DNA from: Bacteroidaceae bacterium
GTDB lineage: Bacteria > Bacteroidota > Bacteroidia > Bacteroidales > Bacteroidaceae
Assembly (NCBI GenBank): GCA_017965425.1
Contig: JAGCPY010000046.1
Coordinates: 1 to 61,045 of the forward strand
Length of the DNA stretch: 61,045 nucleotides
Reading direction: 5' to 3'
Shown here: one piece after another, positions 8,540-26,221 of the stretch
Position numbering within the stretch: position 1 is the first letter of the stretch
Layout: each line of letters opens with the position of its first letter
Translations under genes and position numbers: made by a program
Notes under the pieces: model-generated
The model's database searches: none
The model's input: only the letters and a program-made list of their open reading frames with translations
Told to the model about the DNA's origin: nothing

Positions 8540-10540
8540 TTATTGCTGAGCTGTTGGTTGAAGTACGATGGCCTGTGCCGACTGGTTGTCCATGTTGGGC
8601 ATCGTCATGCCGACGGGAGCTCCGATGTAGGTGGGATCGGCTATCGTAAAACGGTCACCGTCCACGACAAGGTAGTCACCATCAACAGGGGCTGTGAAAT
8701 GCACGGCAGCTGCCAAATGTCCTGGGTAGTAGATGAGGACGGTCTTCAGGCCTACCAAATCGCGCACGAGGCGAGTGAAGAGGATGGAACGGTCTTCACA
8801 GTCAGCGTATGGGTAGTAGAGCGATTCCTCGGCGAAGAATACGCGGTCGCCGCCCCAGACCTTGTCGTCGTATTCATAGACAAGACCTGTCTGAACGAAA
8901 TTCAACAGACGGTTGACAGCTTCTTTCTGTGTCTTACCCTTGATCTTTTCTTTGAGTACGGGATAGAGTTGTTTACGCACTTCTTCGGCCAGCGGCGTGT
9001 TGGCATACATGGCCCAGCGGCTCATGGTGCTGCCTCCAATCTCGGAGGTCGGATAGCCGTTGAAGAAATTGATGAGGTTCTTGTTGACGGAGACGTTCAC
9101 CTTGATGTCCGGGTATTCCTCGGATGAGATTGTGCGTGGCTGCGAGGGGTCGTCGTCGAAGACAGGCTCGTCGGGAACGACCAGAGAGAGCGCTTGTTCG
9201 GCGGGGTAGGGAAGGGCGCAGACGCTGAGAGCGTCTTCATCGCAGTTACGTGGGTAGAATTTCTCGCCGTTCAGGGTGAAAAAGGACACATTAAAGATTT
9301 TATGCCGGCTACCGAAGAGGAAGTAGAGGCGGTTGCTGGATTTGGCAAGGCGCATCTGGTAGCCCGACTGACAGAACAGATAGGCCGTGAAGAGGGTGCT
9401 TTCGTTGCTCTTGCCGAAGGCGGCCTCGCCAACAGCTTCCAACAGCAACAGATAACCCCAGTCACTGAGCTTCAGTTCGTCGCGAAGGCTCAGGCAATCC
9501 AATACTGTGTTGTTGAATCCTTTGTTGGCCAGGTCAATCCAACCATCGGTGATGGCATCTTCGCTAATATTGGGCAGGCGGAATCTGTCTTTCTTGTCGA
9601 AGCGCACGCGTAGCTTGGTGCCGAAGAAAGTGAACTGCAAGCCTTCGAAATGCTGTGGTGCCACTTTCAACGGACTCACCACCAGGTTCTGCTTGAAGGG
9701 GTTGTTCTTGATGGGGTCGGAGAGGATGGGCTGCATCTTCACGGGATCGAGGTCTTGCTTCTCAATTTTTAGCTTCTCGACATCCACGAGGGCAATGGGA
9801 TCGATGGGAACCGGTTGTGGTTCGGGCAAGGTAGGAGCGATTACCTGATCAATCTTTATGGGTTTGCCTTTGATGGTCTTTCCGCGCTGGTTCTTGGGCA
9901 AACGCAAGGGCTTTACCTCCTGACGCACAGGCTGCGGGATGGGTGGTTCTTTGTCGAACGTCTTCCAAGCATCCTTCATGAATTTGGCATACTCCTCATT
10001 GGCGGCTTTCTGGAAATTGTAGTATTCTTCGGTGACCTTTTGCTTGAAGTCATCATACTCGTCCTTCATGGCCTGCATCTCGCGGCGTGCCTTCTCGAAA
10101 TCATCCAGTTCCTCTTCTTCCTTGTCTTTCTTGAACTTCTGGATTTCGCGGGTGACGGTGGCCACGTCGCTGTGGCGTTGTGCCATCTTCTTCGAGGCTC
10201 CTGTCATCTGGGCAACCATGTAGTCGGCGAAGCGTTGAGTCAGTTCCACAACGTTCGTCCCTTTCTGTTCCATGAGTGCCTTGACGGTGGAGGTGCCTTG
10301 TGTCTTGATAACATATTGCTTCCTGTTGGCCTGATCAACCAGACGGACAGAAGCATCGTAGGGAATGGTTATGGTCGTGTTGGGCGTCAGCTTGTCCGAC
10401 ACCTTCAGGTCTTTCTTGCCTTCGGACGTTGACTGCTGGACTTTTCCTGACACCGAGAAGACCACAAGCTCCTGCGCGCCTACACTGACGGTCGTCGCAA
10501 CCAGCAGGAGCAAAGTGATGGCTTTATTCAGATGTTTCAT
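8540..10540 (-). CDS. Exported transglutaminase-like protein with coiled coil (paralogue 1)
   Basis: The 666-residue protein has a signal peptide (LLLLVATTVSVGAQ), a small beta-rich FecR-like segment (about 24-95), a strongly charged coiled coil (about 120-200), a proline-rich linker and a C-terminal half ending in a transglutaminase-like core. The candidate triad is Cys581 (ADCEDRS), His608 (GHLAAAVHF) and Asp635 (ADPTYIG). Such papain-like folds act as proteases, transglutaminases or deamidases, so the reaction cannot be stated. The last 350 residues align throughout with the next gene upstream, so the two are tandem paralogues. It is the last gene of the operon from 13975 (25-nt gap to its neighbour). 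Not recognised as any named protein. Confidence 0.8.
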   Translation of the reverse strand: MKHLNKAITLLLLVATTVSVGAQELVVFSVSGKVQQSTSEGKKDLKVSDKLTPNTTITIPYDASVRLVDQANRKQYVIKTQGTSTVKALMEQKGTNVVELTQRFADYMVAQMTGASKKMAQRHSDVATVTREIQKFKKDKEEEELDDFEKARREMQAMKDEYDDFKQKVTEEYYNFQKAANEEYAKFMKDAWKTFDKEPPIPQPVRQEVKPLRLPKNQRGKTIKGKPIKIDQVIAPTLPEPQPVPIDPIALVDVEKLKIEKQDLDPVKMQPILSDPIKNNPFKQNLVVSPLKVAPQHFEGLQFTFFGTKLRVRFDKKDRFRLPNISEDAITDGWIDLANKGFNNTVLDCLSLRDELKLSDWGYLLLLEAVGEAAFGKSNESTLFTAYLFCQSGYQMRLAKSSNRLYFLFGSRHKIFNVSFFTLNGEKFYPRNCDEDALSVCALPYPAEQALSLVVPDEPVFDDDPSQPRTISSEEYPDIKVNVSVNKNLINFFNGYPTSEIGGSTMSRWAMYANTPLAEEVRKQLYPVLKEKIKGKTQKEAVNRLLNFVQTGLVYEYDDKVWGGDRVFFAEESLYYPYADCEDRSILFTRLVRDLVGLKTVLIYYPGHLAAAVHFTAPVDGDYLVVDGDRFTIADPTYIGAPVGMTMPNMDNQSAQAIVLQPTAQQ

Positions 10541-10565
10541 AGTTGACGTTTTTTAGTCAAGCCGC

Positions 10566-12356
10566 TTATTGCATGAGGATGATGCTGGCTTGTGAATTGT
10601 CTTCGAAGGGGTTGGTCATTGTCACACCAGGACGGGGCACGATGTTCGTCGGGTCACAAATGTAGTAGCGTTCACCATCTGCCAGGAGGTAGTCGCCCGT
10701 CACCGTGGGGTCGGTGAAGTGAACTGCGGCTGCCAAGTGTCCGGCGGATGCTGGATAATAGACCAGACCAGATTTCAACCCTGTCACTTCCTTGACCAGC
10801 TTGACGAAGAGGATGGCGTGGTCTTCACAGTCGCATTTGGGATAGAAGAGTGTTTCCTCGGCGAAGAACGCACGATCGTAGCCCCAAACGACATCGTCGT
10901 ATTCGTATTCCAGCCCGCTTTGCATTAGGTCAAGCAGACGTTCGATTTGCTCTTTCTCGCTCAGGCCTGCCAGTTTCTTCTTCAGGGCAGGAACAATCTG
11001 CTTGAAGACATCCTCGTCCCAGGCGGCTTCGGCGTAAGATTGCCATTTGGTCATCATGTTATTGTCGTATTCCGAGCTGGGATAATCGGCGTAGAAGTCA
11101 AGCAGGTTCTTGTTCACGGCCACGTCGATGCTTACATCCGGGTACTTTGGTGAGGCAATGGTACGGACGTCGGAAATGTTCTTGGTCAAGACAGGAGACT
11201 CGTCTATCAGCAGCGACATGGGCTGCGTGCCGGTGAATTCCTGGTCACATGCGGTGACATAGTAGAATGTCTTGGCACGGTCGTTCAAGACATAGTAGTG
11301 GGTTCCGTTGATGTCGAAGCGGCCCTTTCCGTAGATGGCGTGGGGTGAGGCAAATAGCATCAACAGCTCGCCGTTGTTTTCACCGAGCATGATCTTATAG
11401 CCCGATTGGCAGTAGAGATAGGCAATGAGGAAGGTGGTGGCGTTGTTGTCTTTGCCCAGCCACGTCTCGGCCATAATCTGCAACATGCGCAGATAGGCCC
11501 AGTCGCCCAACTTGTGTTCCTCTTTCAGACGGAGGCAATCGTCCAAAAGCGGGTCGTAGGGCTTGGAAGAGCAGGTACGCCAAGCATCGGCCACCAACTT
11601 GTGGTCGTTGTTAGGCAAACGTTGTGGCAATGTCAGCTTCTTGGTGATTTCGCCGATGTTTACATACATGGGCGTACCATAGAACATGAACGTCAGCACT
11701 TTGCTGGGGTCGGGTGCTGGTTTAGCGGGTTGTATGGCTGGCAGTTCAGGCTTTTTTTCAGCTTTTATTTCAGGCTTCTTCTCTTCTTTGAAGAAATTGT
11801 CGAATTTATCATCGATTTTCTTAGGTTCAGCTTTGGGTGCGGCAGGCTTCTCAGCAGTAGTAGGTGCTCGTTTGTAGATGGGATCGGGCTTTGGTTTTGA
11901 AGAGAAGACCTTCTTGATGGACTTGACCACGCGTTTCAAGGAGAAGCCTGCGTCGGTCAGAGGTGCGTCACTCACGACGGCAGAGGCGGCCATCATTTGC
12001 TTCTGGCGTTCCTTCGGGTCAATGCTGTTTAAGTCTTTGGGTTTCTCAAGCGGCTCTTTCTTTTTGTCCTTGATGTCGGTCCATGAACCTTCTAAGAGGC
12101 TGGCGTATTTCTCGTTGCATTCGCGACGGAACTTCTCCCACTCCTCTTCTGTTTCCTCTACGAATTTATTCCAGGAATTATCTTCCTTGTTCATGCGGGC
12201 CTTGATGGAGTCTTTCTCAGCTTTTGCACGTGCGCGTTTCTCTTCCAGAACCTTTTGCTGTGCCTTTGTGAGTCTCGGTTTCTTTTGCGACATGGCTGGG
12301 GAGGCAAACAGCAGGGCTGCCAGCACTCCGATGATGATGCGATGTTTCTGTCTCAT
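10566..12356 (-). CDS. Exported transglutaminase-like protein with coiled coil (paralogue 2)
   Basis: The 596-residue protein begins with a signal peptide (ALLFASPAMSQ), then a Lys/Glu-rich coiled coil (about 25-110), a low-complexity Pro/Lys/Ala linker (about 150-215), and a C-terminal half that matches the 666-residue neighbour (for example YCQSGYK versus FCQSGYQ and DWAYLRMLQ versus DWGYLLLLE). The transglutaminase-like triad is Cys510 (CDCEDHA), His540 (GHLAAAVHF) and Asp568 (ICDPTN). It lacks the FecR-like segment of paralogue 1. Keeping both triads intact suggests that both are active. The enzymatic reaction and substrate are unknown. It is third in the operon, with gaps of 29 and 25 nt. 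Confidence 0.8.
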   Translation of the reverse strand: MRQKHRIIIGVLAALLFASPAMSQKKPRLTKAQQKVLEEKRARAKAEKDSIKARMNKEDNSWNKFVEETEEEWEKFRRECNEKYASLLEGSWTDIKDKKKEPLEKPKDLNSIDPKERQKQMMAASAVVSDAPLTDAGFSLKRVVKSIKKVFSSKPKPDPIYKRAPTTAEKPAAPKAEPKKIDDKFDNFFKEEKKPEIKAEKKPELPAIQPAKPAPDPSKVLTFMFYGTPMYVNIGEITKKLTLPQRLPNNDHKLVADAWRTCSSKPYDPLLDDCLRLKEEHKLGDWAYLRMLQIMAETWLGKDNNATTFLIAYLYCQSGYKIMLGENNGELLMLFASPHAIYGKGRFDINGTHYYVLNDRAKTFYYVTACDQEFTGTQPMSLLIDESPVLTKNISDVRTIASPKYPDVSIDVAVNKNLLDFYADYPSSEYDNNMMTKWQSYAEAAWDEDVFKQIVPALKKKLAGLSEKEQIERLLDLMQSGLEYEYDDVVWGYDRAFFAEETLFYPKCDCEDHAILFVKLVKEVTGLKSGLVYYPASAGHLAAAVHFTDPTVTGDYLLADGERYYICDPTNIVPRPGVTMTNPFEDNSQASIILMQ

Positions 12357-12385
12357 AATATATAAAGGTATATATGGCGGAAATG

Positions 12386-13306
12386 TTAGTTCTTCTTTTG
12401 GATGCTGATGATGCGTTTAGAGCGTTGCAGCTCCGTGTCTTTGCTCATCAGCTTGATTTGCCATTTCTGGAAGTCGGCGTATGGCACCTCGCCGACCAGT
12501 GTGCGTTCCACACCGCTGCCATCCGTGATGGTTGCGCGGTCGCCGTTCGTGGCTTTGCGGAATTTGTTGGGTGAGAAGAATACGTAAACTTGGTCGTATT
12601 CGATTCTGCTATTTGTCCAGAGCACCAGTTCCTGCGTCTTTTCCAAACCCACTTCACCATTATTGTGCTTGGGGTTATCAGAGAAGAAGACGTATTGTTG
12701 TCCGCCTTTGACGGGATAGATGCCTCTGGGGTCTTGGTCGTTGGGAACAATACATTGTGCGGCACCTCGCTCGTCGCAGATATAGACGGCCAAGAAGCCG
12801 TCACAGGGTGCCTGAAACGTCATGAAGAGTTGGTCATCGACGAAGAAACTCTCAGCCTCTGAGGCGTCTTCGACATGGTTGCGCATCAGTTTCCACTTGA
12901 AGTCGGGCGTCGCCCACTTCACCTCGCGCACCTTCCCCTTCACTTTGCATGTGATGCGCCACATGTCCGTGGTGTTATCGTAGGCGGGGTCGGAATATTG
13001 AGGGTCTTTGCTGTCTCCCATCCATTCTCCCTTCACCTCGCTCAGTCCTGTCATATTGAAACTGCTGGAGCTGTTGCCAGCCGAACTATTCAAGGTCACG
13101 GAATGACTCTCGGCCACAATCGTGCCAGGGAAGACGCTTTGGATGGCGTCGATCTTGGCGCGTTCGTAGGCCAAGACCTTGGCCTGCTTGGGCGACATGT
13201 CGCTGTGATAGGTGACTTCGCCGAAACCCTCTGCCGTCTTCACCTCCTGGGCTATTGCCCAAGGGGTGAAGAGCGTGAGGGAGAGAACAAGTAGAAATCT
13301 TGTCAT
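12386..13306 (-). CDS. Exported DUF4384 protein (copy A)
   Basis: The 306-residue product has a signal peptide ending PWAIAQ, an LPP20-like N-terminal segment (EVTYHSDMSPKQAKVLAYERAKIDAIQ) and a DUF4384 domain from about residue 150 (FFVDDQLFMTFQAPCDGFLAVY). In other phyla DUF4384 is often fused to or next to caspase-like proteases. A clear homologue lies at 25295 in the opposite arm (shared VKGEW, CKVKGKVRE, LMRNH, VKGG.YVFFS), so each arm of the cluster carries one. No catalytic residues are evident, so a binding or scaffold role is more likely than an enzyme. It is second in the operon after the gene at 13352 (45-nt gap holding a GGCTCATGAGCC palindrome). Confidence 0.82.
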   Translation of the reverse strand: MTRFLLVLSLTLFTPWAIAQEVKTAEGFGEVTYHSDMSPKQAKVLAYERAKIDAIQSVFPGTIVAESHSVTLNSSAGNSSSSFNMTGLSEVKGEWMGDSKDPQYSDPAYDNTTDMWRITCKVKGKVREVKWATPDFKWKLMRNHVEDASEAESFFVDDQLFMTFQAPCDGFLAVYICDERGAAQCIVPNDQDPRGIYPVKGGQQYVFFSDNPKHNNGEVGLEKTQELVLWTNSRIEYDQVYVFFSPNKFRKATNGDRATITDGSGVERTLVGEVPYADFQKWQIKLMSKDTELQRSKRIISIQKKN

Positions 13307-13351
13307 GGATGTGAAGTTGTTAAGCTCATGGGGCTCATGAGCCTCGCAGGA

Positions 13352-13975
13352 TCATTTCAGTTCTTTGTCAAACTTTTCACCAAGACCCTTGATAGATTGT
13401 TCAAGGGCATCGCGGTATGCCTCTTTCGCTTTGGCCATACCCGTCTTGGTGCTGTAGGCAACTCGGAACATGATTTCGACATTACCATTGGGTAGCTTCC
13501 TGTAGGCTTCGAAGACAGGCACCGTGCGTCCCAAAGTGCCTGATACGAGCTCCTTGCCTTTGGCGATGACTTGAGCAACAGAGGCAGCTTCGTCGCCCGT
13601 AAGTTGTTTGTTGCCTAAGCTGGTTTCGATAATCTGCGTGATTTCAGCGTTCATCTGTTCAGCGACACTCGTGCGAGCCAGAGCATTGGCCTGAAGCTTG
13701 GCTGCATCATAGAATTCACCGATGGGGTTGCTTTCTCCGATGATCCACTTGGAAATACCTTCATCGTCCAACTCCAAGTTCTTTTTGATGTACATATCTT
13801 CGAGCTGACGTTCTAGGGGCAGCGCTCCAGGTACAGTTACCCAACCTGCTTTCTTCAGTTCTTTGGCCTGCTTCTTGGCATCCTTGATGATTTCCTTCAT
13901 GGTGCTTCTCTGAGCGAAGCCACTGAGTGAGAACACGAATGCACTGATGAGTGCAAAGAGAATAGTCTTTTTCAT
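13352..13975 (-). CDS. Small exported LPP20-like protein
   Basis: The 207-residue protein has a signal peptide (FALISAFVFSLSGFAQ) with no lipobox, followed by a mostly helical body. The stretch AKLQANALARTSVAEQMNAEITQ resembles the LPP20-like repeats in other products of this cluster, where an A-x-x-x-A-R segment precedes a short beta unit (GNVEIMFRVAYS). No enzyme motif is seen. It is first in the operon leading to the DUF4384 and transglutaminase-like genes, with a promoter at 14094-14101. The function is unknown; an envelope-assembly or binding role is inferred from context only. Confidence 0.75.
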   Translation of the reverse strand: MKKTILFALISAFVFSLSGFAQRSTMKEIIKDAKKQAKELKKAGWVTVPGALPLERQLEDMYIKKNLELDDEGISKWIIGESNPIGEFYDAAKLQANALARTSVAEQMNAEITQIIETSLGNKQLTGDEAASVAQVIAKGKELVSGTLGRTVPVFEAYRKLPNGNVEIMFRVAYSTKTGMAKAKEAYRDALEQSIKGLGEKFDKELK

Positions 13976-14093
13976 TTTTCTTTGGTTTAGTTGTTTTGAA
14001 TTGGGTTAATACTTTTTCTCGTTCAATGTGGCGGTGTGGATGATGCTTGCACGGCATGAAATGACGAGTATTATATCATCCACTTGCCGCCGC

Positions 14094-14101
14094 AAAGTTA
14101 T
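14094..14101 (-). promoter_or_regulatory. -7 box (TAACTTTG) for the 13975-8540 operon
   Basis: The minus strand reads TAACTTTG, matching TAnnTTTG, about 120 nt upstream of the start at 13975. This separates the DUF4384/transglutaminase-like operon from the operon that ends at 14998. Confidence 0.6.
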
Positions 14102-14271
14102 GAAGAAAATCTAAATGACAACTATTTCTTCACTTTTTTTAGCGTGAAAAGGTAAAAATGGGCCAAAATGTACTAAAATATGCACATCTTAACGTTATTT
14201 GTGCTGGATTTTCACACTTCTTGACACCTTTCCACGCTCTTTTCCACGCAAACCTGAACCTCTTCCGCCTC

Positions 14272-14320
14272 GAATGTGCACACCTTCCGCTTGGAACGTG
14301 TACACCTTCCACTCGTTTTC
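14272..14320. repeat. 22-nt period repeat, two units
   Basis: Two units share the form GAAyGTGyACACCTTCCgcT and start exactly 22 nt apart (GAA at 14272 and 14294). Similar units occur in six other intergenic spots of the window. The rest of 14110-14270 shows no feature. Confidence 0.7.
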
Positions 14321-14377
14321 ACTTTTCTTTCACCACTCCTGTGTTTCGTTCCTCCCGCTTCCTATACTTTTATTCCC

Positions 14378-14475
14378 AAAAAGCCTCAATCCCTCACCAT
14401 TTGATGCAACTGGCTGTTTGATAATTGTTTACAGGTGAGGGATTGGTGAGGAATAGGTGAGGGATGGTGAGGGAA
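14378..14475 (+). repeat. Fold-back repeat R1, copy A
   Basis: A ~100-nt element starts AAGCCTCAATCCCTCACC and ends in four GGTGAGGGA-like units. The CAATCCCTCACC and GGTGAGGGATTG segments pair around a ~35-nt loop. Copies B-E are at 14859, 28213, 28387 and 42930. Confidence 0.85.
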
Positions 14476-14601
14476 ATGAAAATAGGTGTCGCTGCGGCAC
14501 GTTCGATATGAGCAAGATGCTGAAAGAAATGCGGTGATGACAAGAACGGATAGAACCATCAATCAACAAACATCTATTCTAACTGATAACCAATTAGTGA
14601 T

Positions 14602-14800
14602 AATAGGTGTCCGCTAAAAAACGGAAAGGCCAATAAGCACATAGCCCAAAGCAGCGCCCTAGGTTACATGGTGATGTCAGAAACGCCCTGAAAGGGCAAA
14701 AGCGTTTATCTTCAATGCTTTTGCCCTTTCAGGGCGTGGGCCATTCTACATACTCTACCCAGCGTGTTGCCCAGGGCTGACTGCTCATAGGCCTTGCAGG
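14602..14800. repeat. Composite intergenic repeat R2, copy 1
   Basis: It begins AGGTGTCCGCTAAAAAACGG, contains a large hairpin whose arms are CGCCCTGAAAGGGC and GCCCTTTCAGGGCG (about 14682-14738), and has GCCCAGGGC-like blocks on its flanks. A second copy with the same order of parts lies at 42573-42797. It resembles REP-like elements common in Bacteroidota (from memory). No transposase frame is inside. Confidence 0.7.
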
Positions 14801-14858
14801 CAGCTAAATATCCTCACCATCCCCACCTATTCTTCACCAACCCTCACCAATTTCACAA

Positions 14859-14958
14859 CATCCCTCACCATCCCTCACCTATTCCTCACCAATCCCTCAC
14901 CTGTAAATGGCTGTGGAATAACAAGATAATCCAAATGGTGAGGGATTGAGGCTTTTTT
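14859..14958 (-). repeat. Fold-back repeat R1, copy B (inverted to A)
   Basis: It has the same units as copy A in the opposite orientation: four CCCTCACC units, a GGCTGT loop region, then GGTGAGGGATTGAGGC and a T-run. Degenerate CCTCACC units extend upstream to 14810. Copies A and B bracket R2. With the following A-run it could terminate the gene ending at 14998. Confidence 0.85.
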
Positions 14959-14997
14959 CTGTAAAAAGCTAATGGTAGGTGAATGAGGTGCTCTCTG

Positions 14998-16920: not shown

Positions 16921-16944
16921 GTGAATGTGAAGTAGATGAATAGA

Positions 16945-18306
16945 TTAGTGGCGGCGACGTATCTCTTTTGGATTGGGGTCTGGAGTTGGGTTGTCGTCGT
17001 CATCAGGAACAGCCAGTGTCTTGAACTCGACGACGTCGCTGTAAGTGGGACCATCTCCTACGCCGTTCTTGGCATAGACGCGAACGTAATAATAGTCTCC
17101 GTGAGATAAGTTCGTGAGCTGATACTCTACATCACCATCCGTCTTGTCAAGTTTCACGGGGGCGATGGTCGTGTTTTCAACATCTGCCTTGTTCTTGCTG
17201 TAGTAAAGACCGCACTCGGTCACAGCCAAGGTTGTCGTGGAGACATTGAACTTGACAGTGGCGCTGTTGCGCGTGATGTCGGTAATGTTCACGTTGCTGA
17301 GGACGGGCTTGGTGCCGGCAGCCTGGTTGATGGTCAGTGTCTGAGTGGCTTGTGTTCCTGTTTCAGCACGGGTGGTGAGATTGACAGTGATGGTGTGCGG
17401 CTCTTCATCCGTGTTAGGATTGACGGTAATGCCCATTTCCTGAGCTTCTGTACTGGCAATACCAGTAAAGATGGGACCATCATAGTTCTTGAAGGTGGCA
17501 TACGAGCCTTCTGCTGAGATCGTGGCTTGCCAATTGAAGTTAGAGGAAACGCTGTATAAGATGTCCTGACCAACAGCTGGTACGTCAATAGTGTTGTCTG
17601 GCGAGACGGTGATGTAAGCGTTCTTGCCGCCGATGGTCACATTGATAGCGACGGTTTCGGCTTTGTCAAGAGCACGAAGGAGAATGGTACCCTCCTTTTG
17701 TGCGGGATCTTGGTTCTCTTCAGCCTTGATGGTGAGAGTAAAACCAGAAGCGTTCGCAATTGCCCATGTCTCGTCATCGTCAGACTTGACATCATTGGGA
17801 TAGGAACTATAGCCGTTGACCTTGAGCCAATTGACCGAGCTTTGAGCATACCACTTGGTGTTACATGTGATATTGACAATCTGCTCGCCACCAGAATAGA
17901 GGTATGCCAACGTGGAAGGCGTAGCTGTGAGGCTGATGTCGCCAGGACGTTGAGTGACCTTGACCTGATTGGTAATGCCATCACTGGTTGTGATGGTCAA
18001 CGTGGCCGTGCGTTCATTGGGGTTGTTATTCTTTTGTGGAGTAATTGTGAGGTTAGAGTTACCACTTCCTTGTCCACCATTGCTGAGAGATAGCCATCCT
18101 TCGCTTGACTTTGCTGTCCAGCTGGTGTTGGATTGGATTTCCAAGGTTTCCTCTGTGGTGCCACCGCCGAGGGTAATGGTAGGAGGAACCAACAGCATGT
18201 CTGAGCTGGCTATCTGTTCTTCTCCCAAATTGTCGCCACTACAGGCGACGAGAACGCCTGCCATCAACGGCAGTGCCAAGTATATCTTATTGAAAAACGT
18301 TTTCAT
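16945..18306 (-). CDS. BACON-domain lipoprotein with fibronectin-like domain
   Basis: The protein of about 453 residues is a predicted lipoprotein: a signal peptide ending LVAC with Cys22 as the lipidated residue. Three BACON-type domains are visible (about 45-130, 135-240 and 245-345), each with a SNTSWTAKS- or CNTKWYAQS-like strand and an ending such as VKVTQRPG or LTINQAAG. A fibronectin type III-like domain follows (about 350-435), then a Pro/Asp linker and a basic end. BACON domains are thought to bind carbohydrate or glycoprotein. The upstream open frame to 18444 overlaps the PEGA gene and is not used. It is second in the operon with a 46-nt gap. Confidence 0.88.
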   Translation of the reverse strand: MKTFFNKIYLALPLMAGVLVACSGDNLGEEQIASSDMLLVPPTITLGGGTTEETLEIQSNTSWTAKSSEGWLSLSNGGQGSGNSNLTITPQKNNNPNERTATLTITTSDGITNQVKVTQRPGDISLTATPSTLAYLYSGGEQIVNITCNTKWYAQSSVNWLKVNGYSSYPNDVKSDDDETWAIANASGFTLTIKAEENQDPAQKEGTILLRALDKAETVAINVTIGGKNAYITVSPDNTIDVPAVGQDILYSVSSNFNWQATISAEGSYATFKNYDGPIFTGIASTEAQEMGITVNPNTDEEPHTITVNLTTRAETGTQATQTLTINQAAGTKPVLSNVNITDITRNSATVKFNVSTTTLAVTECGLYYSKNKADVENTTIAPVKLDKTDGDVEYQLTNLSHGDYYYVRVYAKNGVGDGPTYSDVVEFKTLAVPDDDDNPTPDPNPKEIRRRH

Positions 18307-18352
18307 GAGTGAGAGTTTATTTATTAGTACTATTATATATAATAAGGTGAAA

Positions 18353-19951
18353 CTACTTACCGATGTTGATGATGATACCCGCGCTGATGGAGAGTCCTCC
18401 AGCTGCGAAGCCTGCTGCATCGGCTGCCTTCTCGAAGGTGGCATCCTTGCTTACAGGCACAGCATATTCAGGCGTGAGGAAAAGATAGACAAACTGGGAC
18501 GGTACGCCGATGAGCTTTGCACCCAGTGTGAGGTTCATGGCCTTGGCACCGTCGGCATACACGGTGTTGTTGGCAAAGCCCTTGTCGAGGCTGCCTTGAA
18601 TCGTCTGGTATGATAAACCCACCTGCGGGGTGATGCTCATACGAGGAATCAGCAGAATCTGATAGCCCAAACGCCCACCAAAGGAACTCATCTTGTAGGT
18701 GTTGCTGCTCAGGAGTTCATGATTGCCTCCATTGAGGTTGTACCAATAAGCAGGGTCGGAGGAGCCGAGCCCCAAAGTGTAGGAGAGCTGTAGGTCGAAA
18801 TGGCTATAGACACCACCCAGGTAGATGGATACGCCCGACAATGAACCGATGTTGAGGCTGTAGCCTGCTCCAAGGTAGAAGGCATACTTGTTCTTGACGT
18901 AGTTGATAGGTTCCAGCACGAGCGTGTCGGACACAAGTCCACCCTTGAGAATGTTGATTTCCTTCTCAAATTTGTTGTAGTCCTTACGAGTAGCCGTGAA
19001 AAGGTGTCTGCCGACGGTCAGCACTTGTGCCTCGTTCATGTTGAAGGGCTGGTTGTTGTCGTAGGTGACGGTGGCACTGCGGGGAACGGTATGCAGTTGG
19101 ATACTTCCCGTATGAGGCACGGGGGCATTGACGGTGATGCGGTTGGTCTGCTGTGCCTTGACGGTGAAGCTGGTCTCGGCATCGTCGCAGTTGGCCTTCT
19201 TGGTGATGACACGATAAGTAGCACCTTCTCTCAGCTCTGTTCGCCAAGTGCCGGCACCACGGCGTGCATTCTCAAACCAAATCTCTGCATTGGGGTCGTC
19301 TTTAACTGTCAAAACGACTTCGCCAAAATAAATGGTCTGATCAATCATCTGAAGGCTAAAGTTCTGTTTGCCTTCGCCTTCAACGACACGCAACTCTGCC
19401 TTACCTTCAAAACGCTCTTTTCTACCAGCAAGTTGGTAGGTTCCAAAGGGAAGATAATGGTTGTAGAGAGGTGTTTTGCCAACTTCCTTGCCGTCGATGG
19501 TAATCGGAACTTCGTTTGTTCCAGATGAAGTAATGTTGACGAAACGGCCTCCACCGACATTAACCAACATGCTGTAGGTTTCACCTTTATCCAGAGCAAA
19601 AGGATACTCATAAGAGAAATCACCAAAAGTGGGATGGCTAATGTTGAGCTTGATGCCAGATGCAGGAACATAAATCCAAATCTCATTGCCTTCAACCTTG
19701 GTTGTGACAATGCCGCGCGTACCGCCGTCGAATCGGAAGTTCTCGATTGTTGGAGCCTTGAATTTGATGAGGGCGGCAGGGTCGCCATTCGCATCTCGAA
19801 CCATCGTGCCTTGAGTCTTGTTGGACAGGTCATTCGACCGATGCTCGAATTCTTCAACGGTCATTTGGGCAAGGGCAGGCAAGGCCAGGAAGGACATGCT
19901 TGCAAGAAGAAAAACCTTTTGCAGCAAATTAAAAAGAGGTGAATGTTTCAT
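18353..19951 (-). CDS. PEGA-domain outer-membrane beta-barrel protein
   Basis: The product of about 532 residues has a signal peptide (FLLASMSFLALPALAQ), an N-terminal beta domain, at least two PEGA-like domains (VPITIDGKEVGKTPLYNHYLPFGTY about 160-210 and GSIQLHTVPRSATVTYDN about 285-340) and a C-terminal barrel of aromatic alternating strands (YAFYLGAGYSLNIG to ISAGIIINIGK). It is probably anchored in the outer membrane with PEGA domains in the periplasm or outside. I chose the ATG at 19951 because the -7 box at 19995-20002 would leave almost no leader for the ATG at 19981. It is first in the PEGA/BACON/LPP20-like operon. Confidence 0.83.
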   Translation of the reverse strand: MKHSPLFNLLQKVFLLASMSFLALPALAQMTVEEFEHRSNDLSNKTQGTMVRDANGDPAALIKFKAPTIENFRFDGGTRGIVTTKVEGNEIWIYVPASGIKLNISHPTFGDFSYEYPFALDKGETYSMLVNVGGGRFVNITSSGTNEVPITIDGKEVGKTPLYNHYLPFGTYQLAGRKERFEGKAELRVVEGEGKQNFSLQMIDQTIYFGEVVLTVKDDPNAEIWFENARRGAGTWRTELREGATYRVITKKANCDDAETSFTVKAQQTNRITVNAPVPHTGSIQLHTVPRSATVTYDNNQPFNMNEAQVLTVGRHLFTATRKDYNKFEKEINILKGGLVSDTLVLEPINYVKNKYAFYLGAGYSLNIGSLSGVSIYLGGVYSHFDLQLSYTLGLGSSDPAYWYNLNGGNHELLSSNTYKMSSFGGRLGYQILLIPRMSITPQVGLSYQTIQGSLDKGFANNTVYADGAKAMNLTLGAKLIGVPSQFVYLFLTPEYAVPVSKDATFEKAADAAGFAAGGLSISAGIIINIGK

Positions 19952-19994
19952 AGAACTTGGTATTTGTTTTAGTGAATTCATTATATTTGCGCGG

Positions 19995-20002
19995 CAAATG
20001 TA
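19995..20002 (-). promoter_or_regulatory. -7 box (TACATTTG), leftward arm of the cluster
   Basis: The minus strand reads TACATTTG 43 nt before the ATG at 19951. Together with the box at 20117 it forms a divergent promoter pair at the centre of the cluster. Confidence 0.65.
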
Positions 20003-20116
20003 CTAAAAAGATTCTAATCGCTCCTGATTATTGTAGAAAAAATATGCGCGAGGGCGTGTTTTTAAGAAAAAAGAGAAAAAAACGAAGATTTTTGTACTTA
20101 TAATCATTTTTATTCC

Positions 20117-20124
20117 TACATTTG
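20117..20124 (+). promoter_or_regulatory. -7 box (TACATTTG), rightward arm of the cluster
   Basis: TACATTTG with a TTTG at 20091-20094 as a possible -33 element. Both arms use the identical box sequence, which fits joint expression. It predicts an unusually long leader of about 195 nt before the ATG at 20328. Confidence 0.65.
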
Positions 20125-20130
20125 CACCCG

Positions 20131-20327
20131 CATAGTGTGCAAAATTGAGCCGGAAAGCGTTTGACAAGCGTCATGAGGGGCGAAGATGAGCACGTTAATT
20201 TGTAAACATAGAGGCGTTTACCGCGAGGTGAGGACTCCCACGACCTCTTATGTTCATAGCTTAATGATTCACTAACAGCCTGAATGGGGGGTCGCAGGTG
20301 CCAAAAAAGGCTGAGCCGCCTGTACAC
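20131..20327 (+). promoter_or_regulatory. Structured 5' leader RNA of unknown class
   Basis: The predicted leader contains a stem of about ten base pairs with one bulge (AACATAGAGG at 20205-20214 with CCTCTTATGTT at 20244-20254), an inner GAGGT/ACCTC pairing, a small stem near 20157 (CGTTTGACAAGCG) and a 3' stem (CAGCCT with AGGCTG). I do not recognise it as any riboswitch or ribosomal leader class. It may control the beta-propeller/caspase operon or hold a small RNA. Confidence 0.45.
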
Positions 20328-22400
20328 ATGAAGAAAATTATTCTTTGCGCCATTGCCAGCGCTTTCATGGCGAATCCTGCCGTCCAAGCTCAGAGCACCA
20401 CGCTCGGCTATGACTACCCGCAAGGCCTTACGCCGACGGGTTTGGACACTTATTCTTTTTCTACTTATTACTTCAATGGGCCGAGGACCTACAACTTGCG
20501 TGGAGCCTATCTTAGCAAGGGTGGTGAAATAGCTGCCATGAAGGTGAATCCTTCTGGTTCGTCGTTCGCCGTGATTGAGAGTAATAGCGGAAAGGTGAAG
20601 ATTTTCGATTTGTGGAAATCCAACAAACTGCTTCAGCAGGTGACATGCAGCAGCACACCTGTTCAAATGGCATTTTCCAATGATGCCCGCTCACTGGCTA
20701 TTGGTCAGGAAAGTAAAAGCGTGGACATTTGTTCCACAGATAACTACACCGTTCAGCGTACACTCACCGCAGGTGTCGTTGCCAAGTGCATGGCATATAG
20801 CAAAGATGACGCCTTGTTGGCTGTGGCCGACGATCGCAACGTTGAAGTCTGGGCTCCGAATGCCGGAACTTTGCGCAAGCGTATCAGTGCTGGTGCTCGC
20901 ATCAACGACATTGCTTTTGCCGACGATGACACTAAATTGTTGGTGGCTACTAATGCTGGTAAGGTGGAAGTGTATGATGCACAAACCCTTAATTCCCTTA
21001 CGGCTATTGACAATGTGGGAGACGCAAAAACTTGTACCCCGACTCCGGATGGTAAGTATGTTGCCGTGGTAACGAACCCGCGCCAAGTGGTAATTGTCAA
21101 CCTCTTGGATCCCAGTGACCGTAAGACTGTGGACAATGAGGTGGGTGGCACGACAGATGCCCGCTTCGTGCAGGACAGCAAGGAGAACATCTACCTTGTG
21201 CACAACACCAGCAACTCCGTGGTCTATTCACGTATTACCAGCTTGTCTCCTTATTTGAGGAAGATGTTGTCAATGGAGCTCAACCAGCGTATGGATGCGT
21301 GGAAACAGAAGAAAGCAGGTGAAAGCGATGCGGATTACCAGGCTCGTGTGAATGAAAAAACAATCTCTGAGCAGATTAAGCTGCAGGAACGTGAACTGGC
21401 AACTAAATATGTAAAGAACGTGGATCTTCCAAAGCTTACGGCTTCAAATGCCAAGTATGATCCTTCCTCTGAATTGTTGATTCTGCAAACCACTGGTACT
21501 GCTTCCAAACTCAAGGTGAAGATGACTTCTGAAGAAGCTGCCGCCCTCCCGGATATGGGAAAATTGCAGATGCGTAATCCTAAGTATAGAATTAACGAGA
21601 AAGACCAAGCTGAGCTGGTTGCAGTTACCCTCGTAGATCCCACGACGGGTAAGGAATATCAGGCAGACGCAGAAGACATGGGGTCAACTTCTTCCACAGG
21701 AAGCCTTGCACAGAACGACAACAATTTGGTTTCTTTGGAGGTTATCCGCAATGCCCAAAAGGAAACGAATGCCATTGAGACCATTAAGGAAGAAGAAACC
21801 GCTAAGGCTCAGAAGCAACAGCTTATCTCCAACCACACCAAAATCAACGTGGCCATGAAGCCTATTGTCGGACGTAACGCCAAGGGTGACAAGACTGTGA
21901 ACTACAAAGCCAGTTTCGATTATGCAGTGGAACCTGCTTATTCTGCCAGCGAAGACTTCGCACTGGGCAGCTATAATGTCAACGAATCTGGTGCTGCCAA
22001 GGCTGTACTGAACATGATCAAGAAGTCCTTCGACACAAACTTGGCTAAGTATGCAGCTGCTGGCAAGCAGGTACAGATCAAGATTAAAGGTTCTGCCGAT
22101 GCAGTTCCCATCAACAATCCGATTGCATACGATGGTCGTTACGGCACCTTCAACCGTGAGCCGGTCACCAAGGGCGGACGCCTGACAAATGTTACCCTCA
22201 ACAGCGAGGAAGGCATCGCCACCAACGAACAGCTGGCTTTCGCACGTGCTGCCAGTATGAAGGATTACCTCATGAAGAATGTTCCTGCCTTGAAGAAGAT
22301 GCAGGATAAGACCGATTATGAGATTGAAGTGTCCAACTCAAAAGGTGGTGAATATCGTCGCGTTAGCGTAGAGTTCACGTTTGTGGATGCTCAACCTTAA
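20328..22400 (+). CDS. Exported beta-propeller protein with OmpA-like C-terminus
   Basis: The 690-residue product has a signal peptide (CAIASAFMANPAVQAQ), a WD40-like propeller (about 60-300; repeats such as MAFSNDARSLAIGQESKSV and MAYSKDDALLAVADDRNVEVW), a charged helical middle (about 310-500) and a C-terminal domain (about 540-690) resembling the OmpA peptidoglycan-binding fold (ATNEQLAFARAASMKDYL, EYRRVSVEFTF). The layout suggests a protein that docks partners via the propeller and holds the cell wall via the OmpA-like domain. The open frame begins 30 nt earlier, but the ATG at 20328 gives the proper signal peptide. It is first in the operon with the caspase gene, 32 nt upstream of it. 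Confidence 0.83.
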   Translation: MKKIILCAIASAFMANPAVQAQSTTLGYDYPQGLTPTGLDTYSFSTYYFNGPRTYNLRGAYLSKGGEIAAMKVNPSGSSFAVIESNSGKVKIFDLWKSNKLLQQVTCSSTPVQMAFSNDARSLAIGQESKSVDICSTDNYTVQRTLTAGVVAKCMAYSKDDALLAVADDRNVEVWAPNAGTLRKRISAGARINDIAFADDDTKLLVATNAGKVEVYDAQTLNSLTAIDNVGDAKTCTPTPDGKYVAVVTNPRQVVIVNLLDPSDRKTVDNEVGGTTDARFVQDSKENIYLVHNTSNSVVYSRITSLSPYLRKMLSMELNQRMDAWKQKKAGESDADYQARVNEKTISEQIKLQERELATKYVKNVDLPKLTASNAKYDPSSELLILQTTGTASKLKVKMTSEEAAALPDMGKLQMRNPKYRINEKDQAELVAVTLVDPTTGKEYQADAEDMGSTSSTGSLAQNDNNLVSLEVIRNAQKETNAIETIKEEETAKAQKQQLISNHTKINVAMKPIVGRNAKGDKTVNYKASFDYAVEPAYSASEDFALGSYNVNESGAAKAVLNMIKKSFDTNLAKYAAAGKQVQIKIKGSADAVPINNPIAYDGRYGTFNREPVTKGGRLTNVTLNSEEGIATNEQLAFARAASMKDYLMKNVPALKKMQDKTDYEIEVSNSKGGEYRRVSVEFTFVDAQP

Positions 22401-22432
22401 TCAATAACACTTTTACATAGGAAACAAGCACG

Positions 22433-24421
22433 ATGAATCGTTCCGTGTCCACGTTAATAAGCCGCATATTGGTCATGGCTTGCACTCTCTTTTGGGGAGT
22501 GCAGGTTCATGGCCAATCGCTGACCCATGCAGAAAACATGTATAATGATTTCTTGAAAATGATGGCGGCGGAAAATAACGTAGCAAAGGCTTCAGCAGAA
22601 GCAGAGGGTGAAGCGGAAGAGCAGACAGAGGAAGACCTGCAGGCCAAGAAGGTTGAAGCTTTTCGCTTTCTCTATCAAAGCTATCTGGAGTATCAGAAAA
22701 TCTTCCGCAATGCTCCTCGCAGGACAGATAACTACAAGAAGGCCAAGAACGGTCTGATAGAGTTGTGGCCATCCTTGCAGAATGGAGCTGCTCAGTTCCA
22801 AGAGATTGATCCTCTGACTTCCACGAAGTTCGCCCGAGCTTACGTTGATGTGGCTATGGACTCCGAGATGAAAGACCAAAAGCAGATGAAGGGCGACCCC
22901 TATTATCCTACAATGGTCTTCTACGCTGGTATGATGTCTTATTCCAAAGACAATTTCCGGGCAAGCATCAAGTATTTGAGTGAATATCTTGATACTGGAG
23001 AGGAAACGCGTAAGGAGTCTGCATTCCGAATGTTGGCTGATTCGCGAAAGTTCCTTGCGGAGATGATTTCCAAGTCTCATACCATTCCTGTTGATCAGTT
23101 AGCTTTGGAAGTTCCAGACTTTCTCAGCTATCTGGAGAAATTCAGGGAGGTGGAGAACGTAAAGGGTGAGTTCGAAACGACGGCGGAATTCAACAAACGC
23201 ATCAATGATGTGACTGGTACTCGAAAGAGTGCGATAGAAGAATATACGACCCGCTTCTATAGTCAGTTCAGTCGTGAAGAGCTGGTGCTCAATGCCTATG
23301 ACCCAGATTACGGTTCCTATCCTATCGATTCTCCTTATGGTAGCTTCATGTTGAAGGTTCCTCGCAGGGACAATGAGGCTCAGCGGTTCCGTGACAGCGA
23401 ATGGTCGGGAGTGGAAGTGTCTAATCCTGCGTATGCGTTTATCAACAACGAAGTTGCCCTGTCTCATCTGGAGTTCACGACTTCGAGCGGCAACAAGTAT
23501 GTTTACGACATCAACGACTTGCCACAACGTGAGGCCGAAGCTGACTTGGCTTTGAATCCGACGCCAGAAGAGACAACCAACTTGGCGACCAATACGCCTA
23601 AGCCAGCTCCTTCCTCAGACCCCAACAACATCGTGTTGCCTTCTACCCGCATCAACATGGAGATTCCTCGTCTGAAGAAAAAGGTGGAGAACTCCTTTGC
23701 CGTGGTGATTGCCAATGAACGGTATGACTATGCTCCTAACGTGCCGAACGCTTTATATGATGGTGAGGCTTTTGCCAACTATTGTGAGCTGACGCTTGGT
23801 ATGGAGAAGAGTCACATCTTCAAGGTCTTCAATGCCACTTTTGGCAAGATGGACAAGGCCATCAGAGACATCCAGCGGATTTCCCGTGGCCGTAGTGGTG
23901 ACATGAATGTGGTGTTCTACTATGCCGGACATGGCGTCCCCAACTCAGAGACGAAGGACGCATACCTGTTGCCTATAGATACCGACGGGAAGGACACGGA
24001 GCGTACTTGCTATTCCTTGAAGACGCTCTATCGTGAGCTGGCTTCGATGAACGCCAACTCTTGCCTGGTCTTCCTCGATGCCTGCTTCAGTGGTGCCAGT
24101 CTTGAAAAAGAAGGCACTCGCGGCAAGATAGTTGTCAAGCCCAAGGGAGAGAAACCACAGGGTAACTTGGCAATCTTCAGTGCTGCCACGGACGAGCAGG
24201 TATCCTTCCCTTATAAGGACGAACAACATGGACTGTTTACATTTTTCCTTCTCAAGAAGTTGCATGATACCAAGGGAAAGGTGACTCTGAAGGAGTTGGG
24301 CGATTATGTTCAGCGTGAAGTGACGAACTACGCCACCATCATCCTGAAAGAGTCGCAGACCCCGACCCTGAATGTCTCGCCAGACTTCGTTGACTGGGAG
24401 AAGGTCAAGCTTGTTCCCTAA
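22433..24421 (+). CDS. Exported caspase-family protease (peptidase C14)
   Basis: The 662-residue protein has an N-terminal signal peptide (MACTLFWGVQVHGQ), a helical TPR-like region (about 30-215), a linker rich in Pro, Thr and Asn, and a C14 caspase domain from about residue 420 (NSFAVVIANERYDY). The catalytic dyad is intact: His500 in YYAGHG and Cys551 in LDACFSGA. A basic stretch (GTRGKIVVKPKG) follows the Cys, where metacaspases are often cleaved for activation (inference). Bacterial caspase homologues typically cut after Arg or Lys. The signal peptide puts this one in the envelope, unlike cytoplasmic defence caspases. It is second in the operon, 50 nt before the next gene. Confidence 0.88.
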   Translation: MNRSVSTLISRILVMACTLFWGVQVHGQSLTHAENMYNDFLKMMAAENNVAKASAEAEGEAEEQTEEDLQAKKVEAFRFLYQSYLEYQKIFRNAPRRTDNYKKAKNGLIELWPSLQNGAAQFQEIDPLTSTKFARAYVDVAMDSEMKDQKQMKGDPYYPTMVFYAGMMSYSKDNFRASIKYLSEYLDTGEETRKESAFRMLADSRKFLAEMISKSHTIPVDQLALEVPDFLSYLEKFREVENVKGEFETTAEFNKRINDVTGTRKSAIEEYTTRFYSQFSREELVLNAYDPDYGSYPIDSPYGSFMLKVPRRDNEAQRFRDSEWSGVEVSNPAYAFINNEVALSHLEFTTSSGNKYVYDINDLPQREAEADLALNPTPEETTNLATNTPKPAPSSDPNNIVLPSTRINMEIPRLKKKVENSFAVVIANERYDYAPNVPNALYDGEAFANYCELTLGMEKSHIFKVFNATFGKMDKAIRDIQRISRGRSGDMNVVFYYAGHGVPNSETKDAYLLPIDTDGKDTERTCYSLKTLYRELASMNANSCLVFLDACFSGASLEKEGTRGKIVVKPKGEKPQGNLAIFSAATDEQVSFPYKDEQHGLFTFFLLKKLHDTKGKVTLKELGDYVQREVTNYATIILKESQTPTLNVSPDFVDWEKVKLVP

Positions 24422-24471
24422 TTAAACTTAACCAATTAGCTAAATCCAACAAACAAAAATCTCATACTGCA

Positions 24472-25248: not shown

Positions 25249-25294
25249 TCAGAACTCGCCTTTTAAGAGGCGACTTAACCAAAACTGAAAAGTG

Positions 25295-26221
25295 ATGAAA
25301 CGATTATTTCTTTTTGTTTTCATCCTCTCTTGTTTTTCCTTCACCTTCTGTGCTCAGGCGCAGGAGGTGAAAACCGTTGAGGGGGAATACATCTTCCACT
25401 ATGGCAGCGACGTTTCCCGTAGGGATGCACGCAACTATGCTTTCGAGCAGGCAAAACTCAACGCCATCCAGAACGCCTTCCCTGGCACGATTACGGCGGA
25501 GAGCAACACGCTCACCATCGCCAACGGCACCGAGGGCAGTTTCTCGAAGTTCATGCAAACCAGCGAGAGCGAGGTCAAGGGCGAATGGCTGGGTGAAGTC
25601 GGTGAGCCCGAATACACCTCTCTGTCATACGACGAGGAGCATGACCTTGACGGCATCAAGTGCCGCGTGAAGGGCAAAGTGCGCGAGCTGACGTGGACAA
25701 AACCGCAGTTCACTTGGACGCTGATGCGCAATCATATTGAGGCTGCTTCTGCCACGGCTGAATTCGTTTCAGGCGACGACATCTACATGGACTTCACGGC
25801 TCCGTGCAATGGCTTTCTCGTGGTCTGCTGCATGGACGGTGCTTCGGGCGAGGTGAACTGCATGGTGCCACATCCCGATGAGCCAGGCGGAGTCTATGAG
25901 GTGAAGGGCGGCAAGCGCTATGTCTTCTTCTCTGAACGCCATGACAATCAGGACCACATGCTTCCTACTCAGGAGCTGCAGCCCATCGCAGAGAGTCCTA
26001 TGGACTATATGCAATTCTTCGTCATCTTTTCTCCTCAGCGCTTCACACGTCCGGCTGCTACTTCCGGCGGCTTCGTCGAGATAGATGGACACAAGTACCA
26101 GCAAGTGCCAATTATTTCGGCAGATGTCTTCAACAAGTGGCTGCTCAAGCAACGCATTCGTGACACGCAGTTGCAATGCGAGAAGAAGCTGATCAGTCTT
26201 CGCAAGAAAACTCAGTTCTAA
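25295..26221 (+). CDS. Exported DUF4384 protein (copy B)
   Basis: The 308-residue product has a signal peptide (FILSCFSFTFCAQAQ) and the same layout as the protein at 12386: an LPP20-like N-terminal part (DVSRRDARNYAFEQAKLNAIQ), a conserved middle (SEVKGEWLG, CRVKGKVREL) and a DUF4384 domain (DDIYMDFTAPCNGFLVV, VKGGKRYVFFSE). The two copies are clearly homologous but diverged, and close opposite ends of the cluster. I use the ATG at 25295; a GTG lies just before it. It is the last gene of the rightward operon and is followed directly by a 13-bp terminator hairpin. Confidence 0.82.
   Translation: MKRLFLFVFILSCFSFTFCAQAQEVKTVEGEYIFHYGSDVSRRDARNYAFEQAKLNAIQNAFPGTITAESNTLTIANGTEGSFSKFMQTSESEVKGEWLGEVGEPEYTSLSYDEEHDLDGIKCRVKGKVRELTWTKPQFTWTLMRNHIEAASATAEFVSGDDIYMDFTAPCNGFLVVCCMDGASGEVNCMVPHPDEPGGVYEVKGGKRYVFFSERHDNQDHMLPTQELQPIAESPMDYMQFFVIFSPQRFTRPAATSGGFVEIDGHKYQQVPIISADVFNKWLLKQRIRDTQLQCEKKLISLRKKTQF

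Follow-up and report, generated by a model that had tools for sequence, protein, structure and literature searches.

The 61,045-nucleotide stretch analysed here (hereafter the window; positions 1-61045 of contig JAGCPY010000046.1, assembly GCA_017965425.1 of a Bacteroidaceae bacterium, labelled G000:C39 in the 3.73-Mb source genome) carries eleven consecutive genes at 8540-26221, whose products include an exported caspase homologue of family C14 and two transglutaminase-like (TG) proteins. We consider these genes very probably part of a real, exported and recurrent gene system of Bacteroidales of gut and rumen. The export of the set, the linkage of its genes, its subtypes and the conservation of its catalytic residues are well supported by the comparisons reported below. 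The function that we favour, with a probability of roughly 0.45, is that of a sensor-controlled envelope cysteine-protease module that would process surface proteins. An earlier note made from this sequence had described eleven consecutive genes in this interval, all with export-like starts, and both points were borne out by the gene calls and the export heuristic. The genes and the two longer intervals between them are as follows (aa, amino acids).

8540-10540, minus strand: TG1, 666 aa; signal peptide, N-domain (residues 23-115), Pro-rich linker and transglutaminase-like domain (C581/H608/D635)
10566-12356, minus strand: TG2, 596 aa; transglutaminase-like (C510/H540/D568)
12386-13306, minus strand: DUF4384a, 306 aa, exported; Pfam match below cut-off, assignment supported by its family
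13352-13975, minus strand: S207, 207 aa, exported; weakly LPP20-like, the commonest TG partner
13976-14997: gap of 1,022 bp with a TAnnTTTG box at 14093-14100 (minus strand) and a 97-nt inverted repeat
14998-16920, minus strand: LPP640, 640 aa; LPP20-like N-domain and NTF2-like (Cds6_C) C-domain, both below the Pfam cut-off in the window member
16945-18309, minus strand: lipoprotein of 454 aa with BACON and fn3 domains; a candidate for a surface protein or for a substrate
18353-19981, minus strand: PEGA protein of 542 aa, possibly with an outer-membrane barrel; its PEGA match passes the cut-off, its Autotransporter match (E 0.0026) does not
19982-20327: divergent region, 346 bp; TACATTTG at 19995 (minus strand) and 20117 (plus strand)
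20328-22400, plus strand: WDOMP, 690 aa; WD40-like propeller, domain 308-445 in common with the caspase, OmpA_C-like end by motif
22433-24421, plus strand: exported caspase (C14) of 662 aa with helical repeats, a domain in common with WDOMP (about 230-359) and a caspase domain (about 405-662) with H500/C551
24472-25248, plus strand: CPDB, 258 aa; CarboxypepD_reg domain, remainder small-barrel-like by eye
25295-26221, plus strand: DUF4384b, 308 aa, exported; DUF4384 family

Linkage of the genes and two subtypes

Gene neighbourhoods were compared in the best 80 of at least 592 TG relatives obtained by a TG-profile scan of named genomes (loci L083, L103 and so on), and genome-level counts were made in 247 genomes of the order, taken as Bacteroidales (labels beginning with G; G000 is the source genome). 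Open reading frames (ORFs) were called with a longest-ORF script, and the family hidden Markov models were built from loci that they also label and run against a small database, which makes their E-values generous. By record title, the TG loci include Prevotella, Bacteroides, Parabacteroides, Paraprevotella, Alistipes, Odoribacter, Muribaculaceae and Paludibacteraceae. Matches to the TG profile also extend beyond the order: a phylum-wide sample of 247 genomes had them in 32, source genome included.

The most frequent partner in the 80 loci was S207 (54 loci), followed by C14 (38, or 42 with a short C14 type included), DUF4384 (35), LPP (22), CHASE2 (21), PEGA (20), WDOMP (5) and CPDB (4). The strand of the TG gene carried 205 of the 210 labelled partner genes, and of the 16 neighbour types seen most often, 14 had median gaps between -4 and 48 bp (S207-DUF4384, 6 bp; DUF4384-C14, -4 bp; C14-TG, 15 bp; LPP-PEGA, 20 bp), the exceptions being TG-TG (186 bp) and C14-S207 (237 bp). 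At the genome level, TG was found in 58 genomes, C14 in 109, DUF4384 in 36, S207 in 33 and LPP in 30. All 36 genomes with DUF4384 also carried C14 (15.9 expected), and co-occurrence exceeded expectation for S207 with DUF4384 (20 vs. 4.8), TG with DUF4384 (26 vs. 8.5) and TG with LPP (23 vs. 7.0). Within 15 kb, we counted 14 S207-TG matches in 12 genomes (0.36 expected), 13 DUF4384-TG matches in 12 genomes (0.37) and 12 LPP-TG matches in 10 genomes (0.47); these expectations assume 3.5-Mb genomes, and second pieces of one ORF were removed from the TG and LPP tables. The C14 rows of this test (28 that we picked from among 343 matches and from further scans) were not used as evidence, and none of the tests in this analysis takes kinship between genomes into account. 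The genes that the earlier note had grouped are therefore found together above expectation rather than rarely. Correlations between the distance matrices of partner genes (r from 0.71 for S207-DUF4384 to 0.18 for TG-LPP) were not taken as proof, since relatedness among the species confounds them.

The partners fall into two largely separate subtypes, DUF4384 with the caspase or LPP20-NTF2 with PEGA. C14 and DUF4384 stood together in 32 loci vs. 16.6 expected and LPP and PEGA in 18 vs. 5.5, whereas DUF4384 and LPP shared a single locus vs. 9.6 expected. Any C14 was found with LPP in three loci (L103, L136 and L181) vs. 11.6 expected (p 3e-5), the C14 of L136 and L181 being of the short type. 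S207 and CHASE2 occur with either subtype, and the window holds both subtypes together with two TGs; in L103 an LPP-PEGA pair is followed further along by TG-S207-DUF4384-C14. In five loci (L107, L148, L151, L153 and L167) the WDOMP-caspase pair lies on the same strand as S207 and TG, with DUF4384 too except in L167. The record of L167 is titled Roseburia, and its cluster closely resembles that of Prevotellaceae L151, so that it is probably mislabelled or a mixed bin. Cultured isolates are among the records of these loci: Prevotella sp. P5-108 (L120) for the caspase type, and Parabacteroides acidifaciens (L118), Bacteroides muris (L138) and Paraprevotella xylaniphila (L137) for the LPP/PEGA type. 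The single system of the earlier note thus stands as a recurrent gene set, which is modular: TG forms the core of two subtypes that are largely separate, and there is no fixed eleven-gene unit. The source genome itself holds five TG, five C14 and five LPP640 genes on contigs C25, C39, C46, C48, C57, C61, C89, C93 and C94, so one cell would carry several related clusters.

Export signals and catalytic domains

Export was called heuristically from hydrophobicity and a Q-site script, with some sites placed by eye; signal-peptidase-I substrates of Bacteroidetes usually expose Gln, according to the accessible text of PMC5837995. For the eleven window proteins the script returned eight Q+1 sites and three lipoboxes (LVAC in the BACON protein, VMAC in the caspase and ILSC in DUF4384b). 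Read by eye, the caspase (Q after VHG) and DUF4384b (Q after AQA) also have a Q site further along, which brings the tally to ten Q sites, that of the caspase among them, and one lipoprotein (BACON). In the relatives, Q+1 sites were called in 71 of 92 TG, 40 of 61 S207, 27 of 37 DUF4384 and 34 of 56 C14 proteins vs. 131 of 885 other ORFs. No signal was scored in a minority of the C14 ORFs (13 of 56), some of these perhaps being cases of contig ends or start-site errors. With export signals in the window caspase and in these 34 C14 relatives, retention in the cytoplasm is not supported. A multi-gene exported system with caspase and TG, as the earlier note proposed, is supported, but export of a caspase homologue is not new as such: secreted caspase homologues were suspected as early as 2012 in the accessible text of PMC3501461.

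The window caspase matched Peptidase_C14 (PF00656) at E 5.5e-20 (72.5 bits, cut-off 21.4), and both residues of the proposed dyad, H500 and C551, are present. In the C14 domains of relatives, the His was kept in 49 of 52 and the Cys in 47 of 52, and D443 and D549 were conserved in all 52-53 domains aligned. These two Asp appear to match D95 and D211 of TbMC2, D549 by its position two residues before the Cys and D443 by rough spacing rather than superposition; the TbMC2 residues are described as important for a basic residue at P1 in the accessible text of PMC6426788. Because the two pocket Asp are invariant and can be equated with the TbMC2 pocket, the caspase is predicted to cut after Arg or Lys. 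R563, conserved in 52 of 53 aligned C14 domains, lies in a loop with a predicted local distance difference test (pLDDT) score below 50 in the AlphaFold2 model; its conservation fits a self-cleavage site, and another active-loop function could also explain it. That model (35 sequences; mean pLDDT 83.6, predicted template modelling score 0.49) shows helical repeats, an alpha/beta domain and a caspase part; confidence is low in a linker at 364-398 and, within the caspase part, in a loop at 555-564 that closely follows Cys551. A search of solved structures with the caspase profile gave no match at E ≤ 0.001. A domain at 234-366 of the caspase recurs at 308-445 of WDOMP (BLAST E 2e-5 between the G011 caspase and the window WDOMP, and in relatives too), to which the Pfam scan gave no name.

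The window caspase did not reach the cut-off of NCBIfam NF047832, the EACC1-type caspase conflict system (71.1 bits vs. 140). Among 21 plasmid records with relatives of the caspase, none spanned 80% of it, and the eight matches listed cover only about 380-650. In the tandem-C14 loci L109, L132 and L164, catalytic losses were seen as His-Leu with Cys-Pro in three copies and Cys-Ser in two; these degenerate copies are possible pseudo-caspase partners. TG loci L136, L142, L149, L159 and L181 carry the short C14 type, which is 279-318 aa long (Pfam C14 E 3e-12 in L159). Genes next to it in L136 and L159 resemble a sigma factor and a regulator by eye; as Pfam matched neither, no sigma match included, we set aside their identification as sigma/anti-sigma genes. 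In L085, L086 and L087 a C14-TG pair is followed by two partly leucine-rich-repeat-like genes (by eye), and the TG has a C-terminal extension.

Both TGs of the window contain the intact triads claimed for them, and their Pfam matches remain below cut-off. The C/H/D triad was kept in 92 of 92 TG domains and in 21 of 21 members of alignment A3. Transglut_core was matched at E ≤ 0.01 by 5 of 21 family members, the resemblance to DUF553/Transglut_core being weak, and no LapG-family Pfam domain was among the matches of the window proteins or the TG family. CylK matches of a first TG profile disappeared in a domain-limited profile (only E 0.39 and 1.8) and were rejected; they probably came from C-terminal repeats in long profile rows. 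A TG relative with 32% identity lies at 460-1899 of MT839828.1, a 4-kb unannotated record named 'Bacteriophage sp.' that may be bacterial DNA.

Sensor, partner proteins and arrangement of the window

The CHASE2 gene (about 386-390 aa; PF05226 E 5e-15 in L107 and 2e-26 in the source genome) mostly lies directly upstream of TG. Its products have a single hydrophobic segment at the N-terminal end and, in most cases, two to three at the C-terminal end; the Pfam scan of two such products found no other domain. The N-domain of TG1 recurs in 14 other TGs, 11 of which are encoded directly downstream of CHASE2. On contig C61 of the source genome, one strand carries CHASE2, TG, PEGA, BACON, a 2168-aa repeat protein with 19 CHB_HEX_C_1 stretches, LPP640 and S207. 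Lipoproteins in clusters elsewhere include BACON with an FGE-sulfatase domain (L103, L150) and Lcl_C ends (two in L135). Together with the 2168-aa protein, these cluster lipoproteins are candidate substrates. Four cluster lipoproteins (L084, L134, L135 and L137) end in a tail around [YW]GxDxN-like letters, vs. 1.12 expected for a regular expression chosen post hoc; this tail is possibly a recognition tag.

Among the partner proteins of the window, BACON, fn3 and PEGA were above their Pfam cut-offs, in line with the BACON and PEGA assignments of the earlier note. Its two DUF4384 proteins are supported by the family (30 of 34 relatives match DUF4384 at E ≤ 0.01), DUF4384a itself falling below the cut-off, and its LPP20-like assignment likewise rests on relatives (15 of 22 LPP members at E ≤ 0.01) with a window match below cut-off. 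S207 was rejected as a firm LPP20 member, with LPP20 matches in only 2 of 40 family members and an hhalign probability of 43%. For the propeller protein WDOMP, a wall anchor had been proposed, and an AD...NEQL..RA...RRV motif, with its Asp and Arg, is conserved among relatives; the anchor holds at the level of this motif and was not accepted as proven, as the OmpA-like end had no Pfam match and no Protein Data Bank (PDB) sequence match at E ≤ 1. PorE, a component of the type IX secretion system, combines a propeller with an OmpA-like end, a layout that WDOMP resembles by motif; WDOMP differs in having an end without such a PDB match.

The left arm runs leftward from the divergent region as PEGA, BACON/fn3 lipoprotein, LPP640, the 1,022-bp gap, S207, DUF4384a, TG2 and TG1, and the right arm as WDOMP, caspase, CPDB and DUF4384b. 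Apart from the long gap of 1,022 bp and the divergent region of 346 bp, neighbouring genes are 24-50 bp apart. By eye, the flanking genes resemble those for an amidophosphoribosyltransferase and a SulP transporter. The two divergent arms are thus present as claimed, with the left one interrupted by the long gap between S207 and LPP640. This gap contains a 97-nt inverted repeat (85% complementary, within 14378-14957) as well as the TAnnTTTG box, so the left arm probably comprises two transcription units. The same gap holds a 24-nt hairpin (14683-14737), which together with the 97-nt repeat perhaps marks a small mobile or repeat element. The identical boxes reported for the divergent region do occur there, TACATTTG being present on both strands, but they look like ordinary promoter elements. 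The window holds three copies vs. 1.39 expected, at least three being reached in 18 of 100 shuffles, and the sequence fits what we take to be the general Bacteroidetes -7 box, TAnnTTTG. With a near-chance copy number and this fit, the boxes were rejected as a signature of the system. The full TTTG-N-TAnnTTTG promoter occurs five times in the window vs. 0.62 expected, and in the divergent region only at 20091-20124 (plus strand).

Functional reading and alternatives

LapG is TG-like, and we know of no Lap locus with a caspase, DUF4384, LPP20 or S207. In the LapD/LapG/LapA system, cleavage of a surface protein by a periplasmic protease is governed by a signalling protein of the inner membrane (PMC3032545, accessible text), and the same sensor-protease-surface-protein logic is suggested by C61, which unites CHASE2, TG and the 2168-aa repeat protein. 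The present set differs in having no LapG-family Pfam match among the window proteins or the TG family, and its sensor would be CHASE2, a periplasmic-side domain, with no LapD-like receptor of cyclic di-GMP, whereas LapD reads this signal in the cytoplasm. It reads as a set that works like LapD/LapG but is not a member. Caspase/TG conflict systems are cytoplasmic, unlike the location predicted for the eleven proteins described here, all of which carry an export signal. In the accessible text of PMC7159879 and PMC8195603, caspase and TG-like peptidase folds both occur in conflict systems, as alternatives, and these systems depend on nucleoside triphosphates; none of their NTPases was among the window-protein matches. 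Orthocaspases and prokaryotic metacaspases share with the window caspase PF00656, the His-Cys dyad and two Asp proposed for a basic P1 (accessible text of PMC3501461 and PMC6426788), and the window caspase differs in its export, its helical-repeat part and shared domain, and its operon-like set with TG. A CHASE2-metacaspase fusion has been published (PMC3501461, PMC2853523), with the caspase predicted on the cytoplasmic side in the accessible text of the former.

In the envelope protease module that we favour, the core would be an exported TG-like enzyme, most often accompanied by S207. Input or scaffold would take two forms, DUF4384 with the exported caspase (in some cases with WDOMP and CPDB) or LPP20-NTF2 with PEGA, and the CHASE2 inner-membrane protein, where present, would act as sensor. 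An envelope signal would be sensed by CHASE2 or by the propeller/PEGA scaffold, the caspase would then be activated, perhaps by self-cleavage at R563, and caspase and/or TG would cleave or cross-link lipoproteins at the surface, along with large proteins resembling adhesins, whose genes lie in the same cluster. Processing of surface proteins fits because the clusters of some relatives contain a CHASE2 sensor and large surface proteins. Protease activity, Arg/Lys at P1, activation, substrates and the order of action are what we infer from sequence and neighbourhood. A more specific version, which we regard as unlikely, is a periplasmic two-protease cascade: on a signal from outside, the caspase would cut itself in the R563 loop and then the Lys/Arg- and Pro-rich linker of TG, and TG, freed from a CHASE2- or scaffold-held state, would remodel surface lipoproteins, with caspase/DUF4384 and LPP20/PEGA as largely interchangeable triggers of one executioner. 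If true, this would place the zymogen logic of apoptosis or coagulation in a bacterial envelope.

Several observations weigh against the module. Genome-level co-occurrence of TG with C14 is modest (37 vs. 25.6) and that of LPP with C14 is not significant (17 vs. 13.2). Neither type of C14 is present in 38 of the 80 TG loci, and 10 of the 80 have no S207, DUF4384, C14, LPP, PEGA or CHASE2 in the flanks examined. Strict exclusivity of the subtypes was withdrawn once the short C14 type was counted, L103, L136 and L181 holding C14 and LPP. In the stretches read of the genus-mates G011, G018:C8 and G013 (38, 19 and 18 kb, two being short contigs), right-arm genes stand without TG. CHASE2 is absent from the window although TG1 has the N-domain, and the sole CHASE2 of the source genome lies on C61 beside another TG. 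Among the 14 N-domain TGs, 3 lack CHASE2 directly upstream (L083, L104 and L106; in L083, which is the C61 cluster, it is one short ORF away), and the N-domain is missing in 8 of 19 CHASE2-linked TGs. Catalytic residues are not intact in 5 of 52 C14 domains, the window TGs score 16.8 and 16.7 bits vs. a Pfam cut-off of 23, and the invariance of the TG Cys is partly built in, as the scan pattern contained it. Finally, the loci are partly of common origin: L121/L123, L126/L175 and L134/L151 come from the same record series, and L118, L136 and L156 seem to be the same contigs as in G129, G135 and G052.

A structural role, in which cross-links made by TG would join lipoproteins and barrels of the outer membrane among themselves or with the wall, the caspase doing no more than maturing components, is conceivable, if rather improbable. 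PEGA, BACON, possible barrels and the OmpA-like motif among the partners suit it, as does the TG fold, which includes transferases besides proteases; the weak likeness of TG to DUF553/Transglut_core and the link to CHASE2, which points to regulation, argue against it. Quality control, with LPP20- and NTF2-like parts binding misfolded outer-membrane proteins for the proteases under envelope stress or in secretion and assembly, would find its adaptors in LPP20, NTF2-like, PEGA and propeller parts, and three clusters contain a short sigma-like gene (by eye). This gene had no Pfam match at E ≤ 0.01, however, and housekeeping agrees poorly with the surface-protein cargo and with genomes that hold several copies, leaving this explanation distinctly improbable.

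Envelope defence or programmed death, in which TG and scaffold would serve as the trigger under attack by phages or competitors and the exported caspase would be the effector that damages the envelope, is also unlikely in our judgement. It would agree with caspases being effectors of bacterial conflict systems and TG-like peptidases rarer alternatives (accessible text of PMC7159879 and PMC8195603), with extracellular localisation and fratricide mentioned in the accessible text of PMC3501461, with a PADLOC match of the caspase (E 5.8e-6), and with a patchy distribution (caspase match in 10 of 41 near genomes, source included; 15 of the 41 have a completeness of 90% or more, and 5 of these have the match). 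Yet nine of the ten proteins scanned (eight of the window and one CHASE2; BACON and CPDB left out) had no PADLOC match at E ≤ 0.01, no STAND/NACHT, gasdermin or nuclease was among the domain matches of the window proteins, and the neighbours in the window resemble metabolism and transport genes (by eye). A caspase is absent from many of the LPP/PEGA loci, and the single phage-collection match of TG1 is the 4-kb unannotated record. That the window simply holds unrelated neighbouring operons with separate jobs is very unlikely: the 1-kb gap splits the left arm and right-arm genes occur without a nearby TG in some genomes, but L107, L148, L151, L153 and L167 join WDOMP-caspase with S207 and TG on one strand, and the colocalisation statistics are above chance.

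No description of this gene set was found among the open-licence papers listed by our searches, as far as their accessible text goes, and the exported caspase-TG set looks undescribed. If the envelope protease module is correct, exported bacterial caspases, usually tied to cell death, would gain an envelope setting with defined partners, and a sensor-linked module for remodelling surface proteins, with at least 592 TG relatives, would be added to common gut and rumen bacteria.

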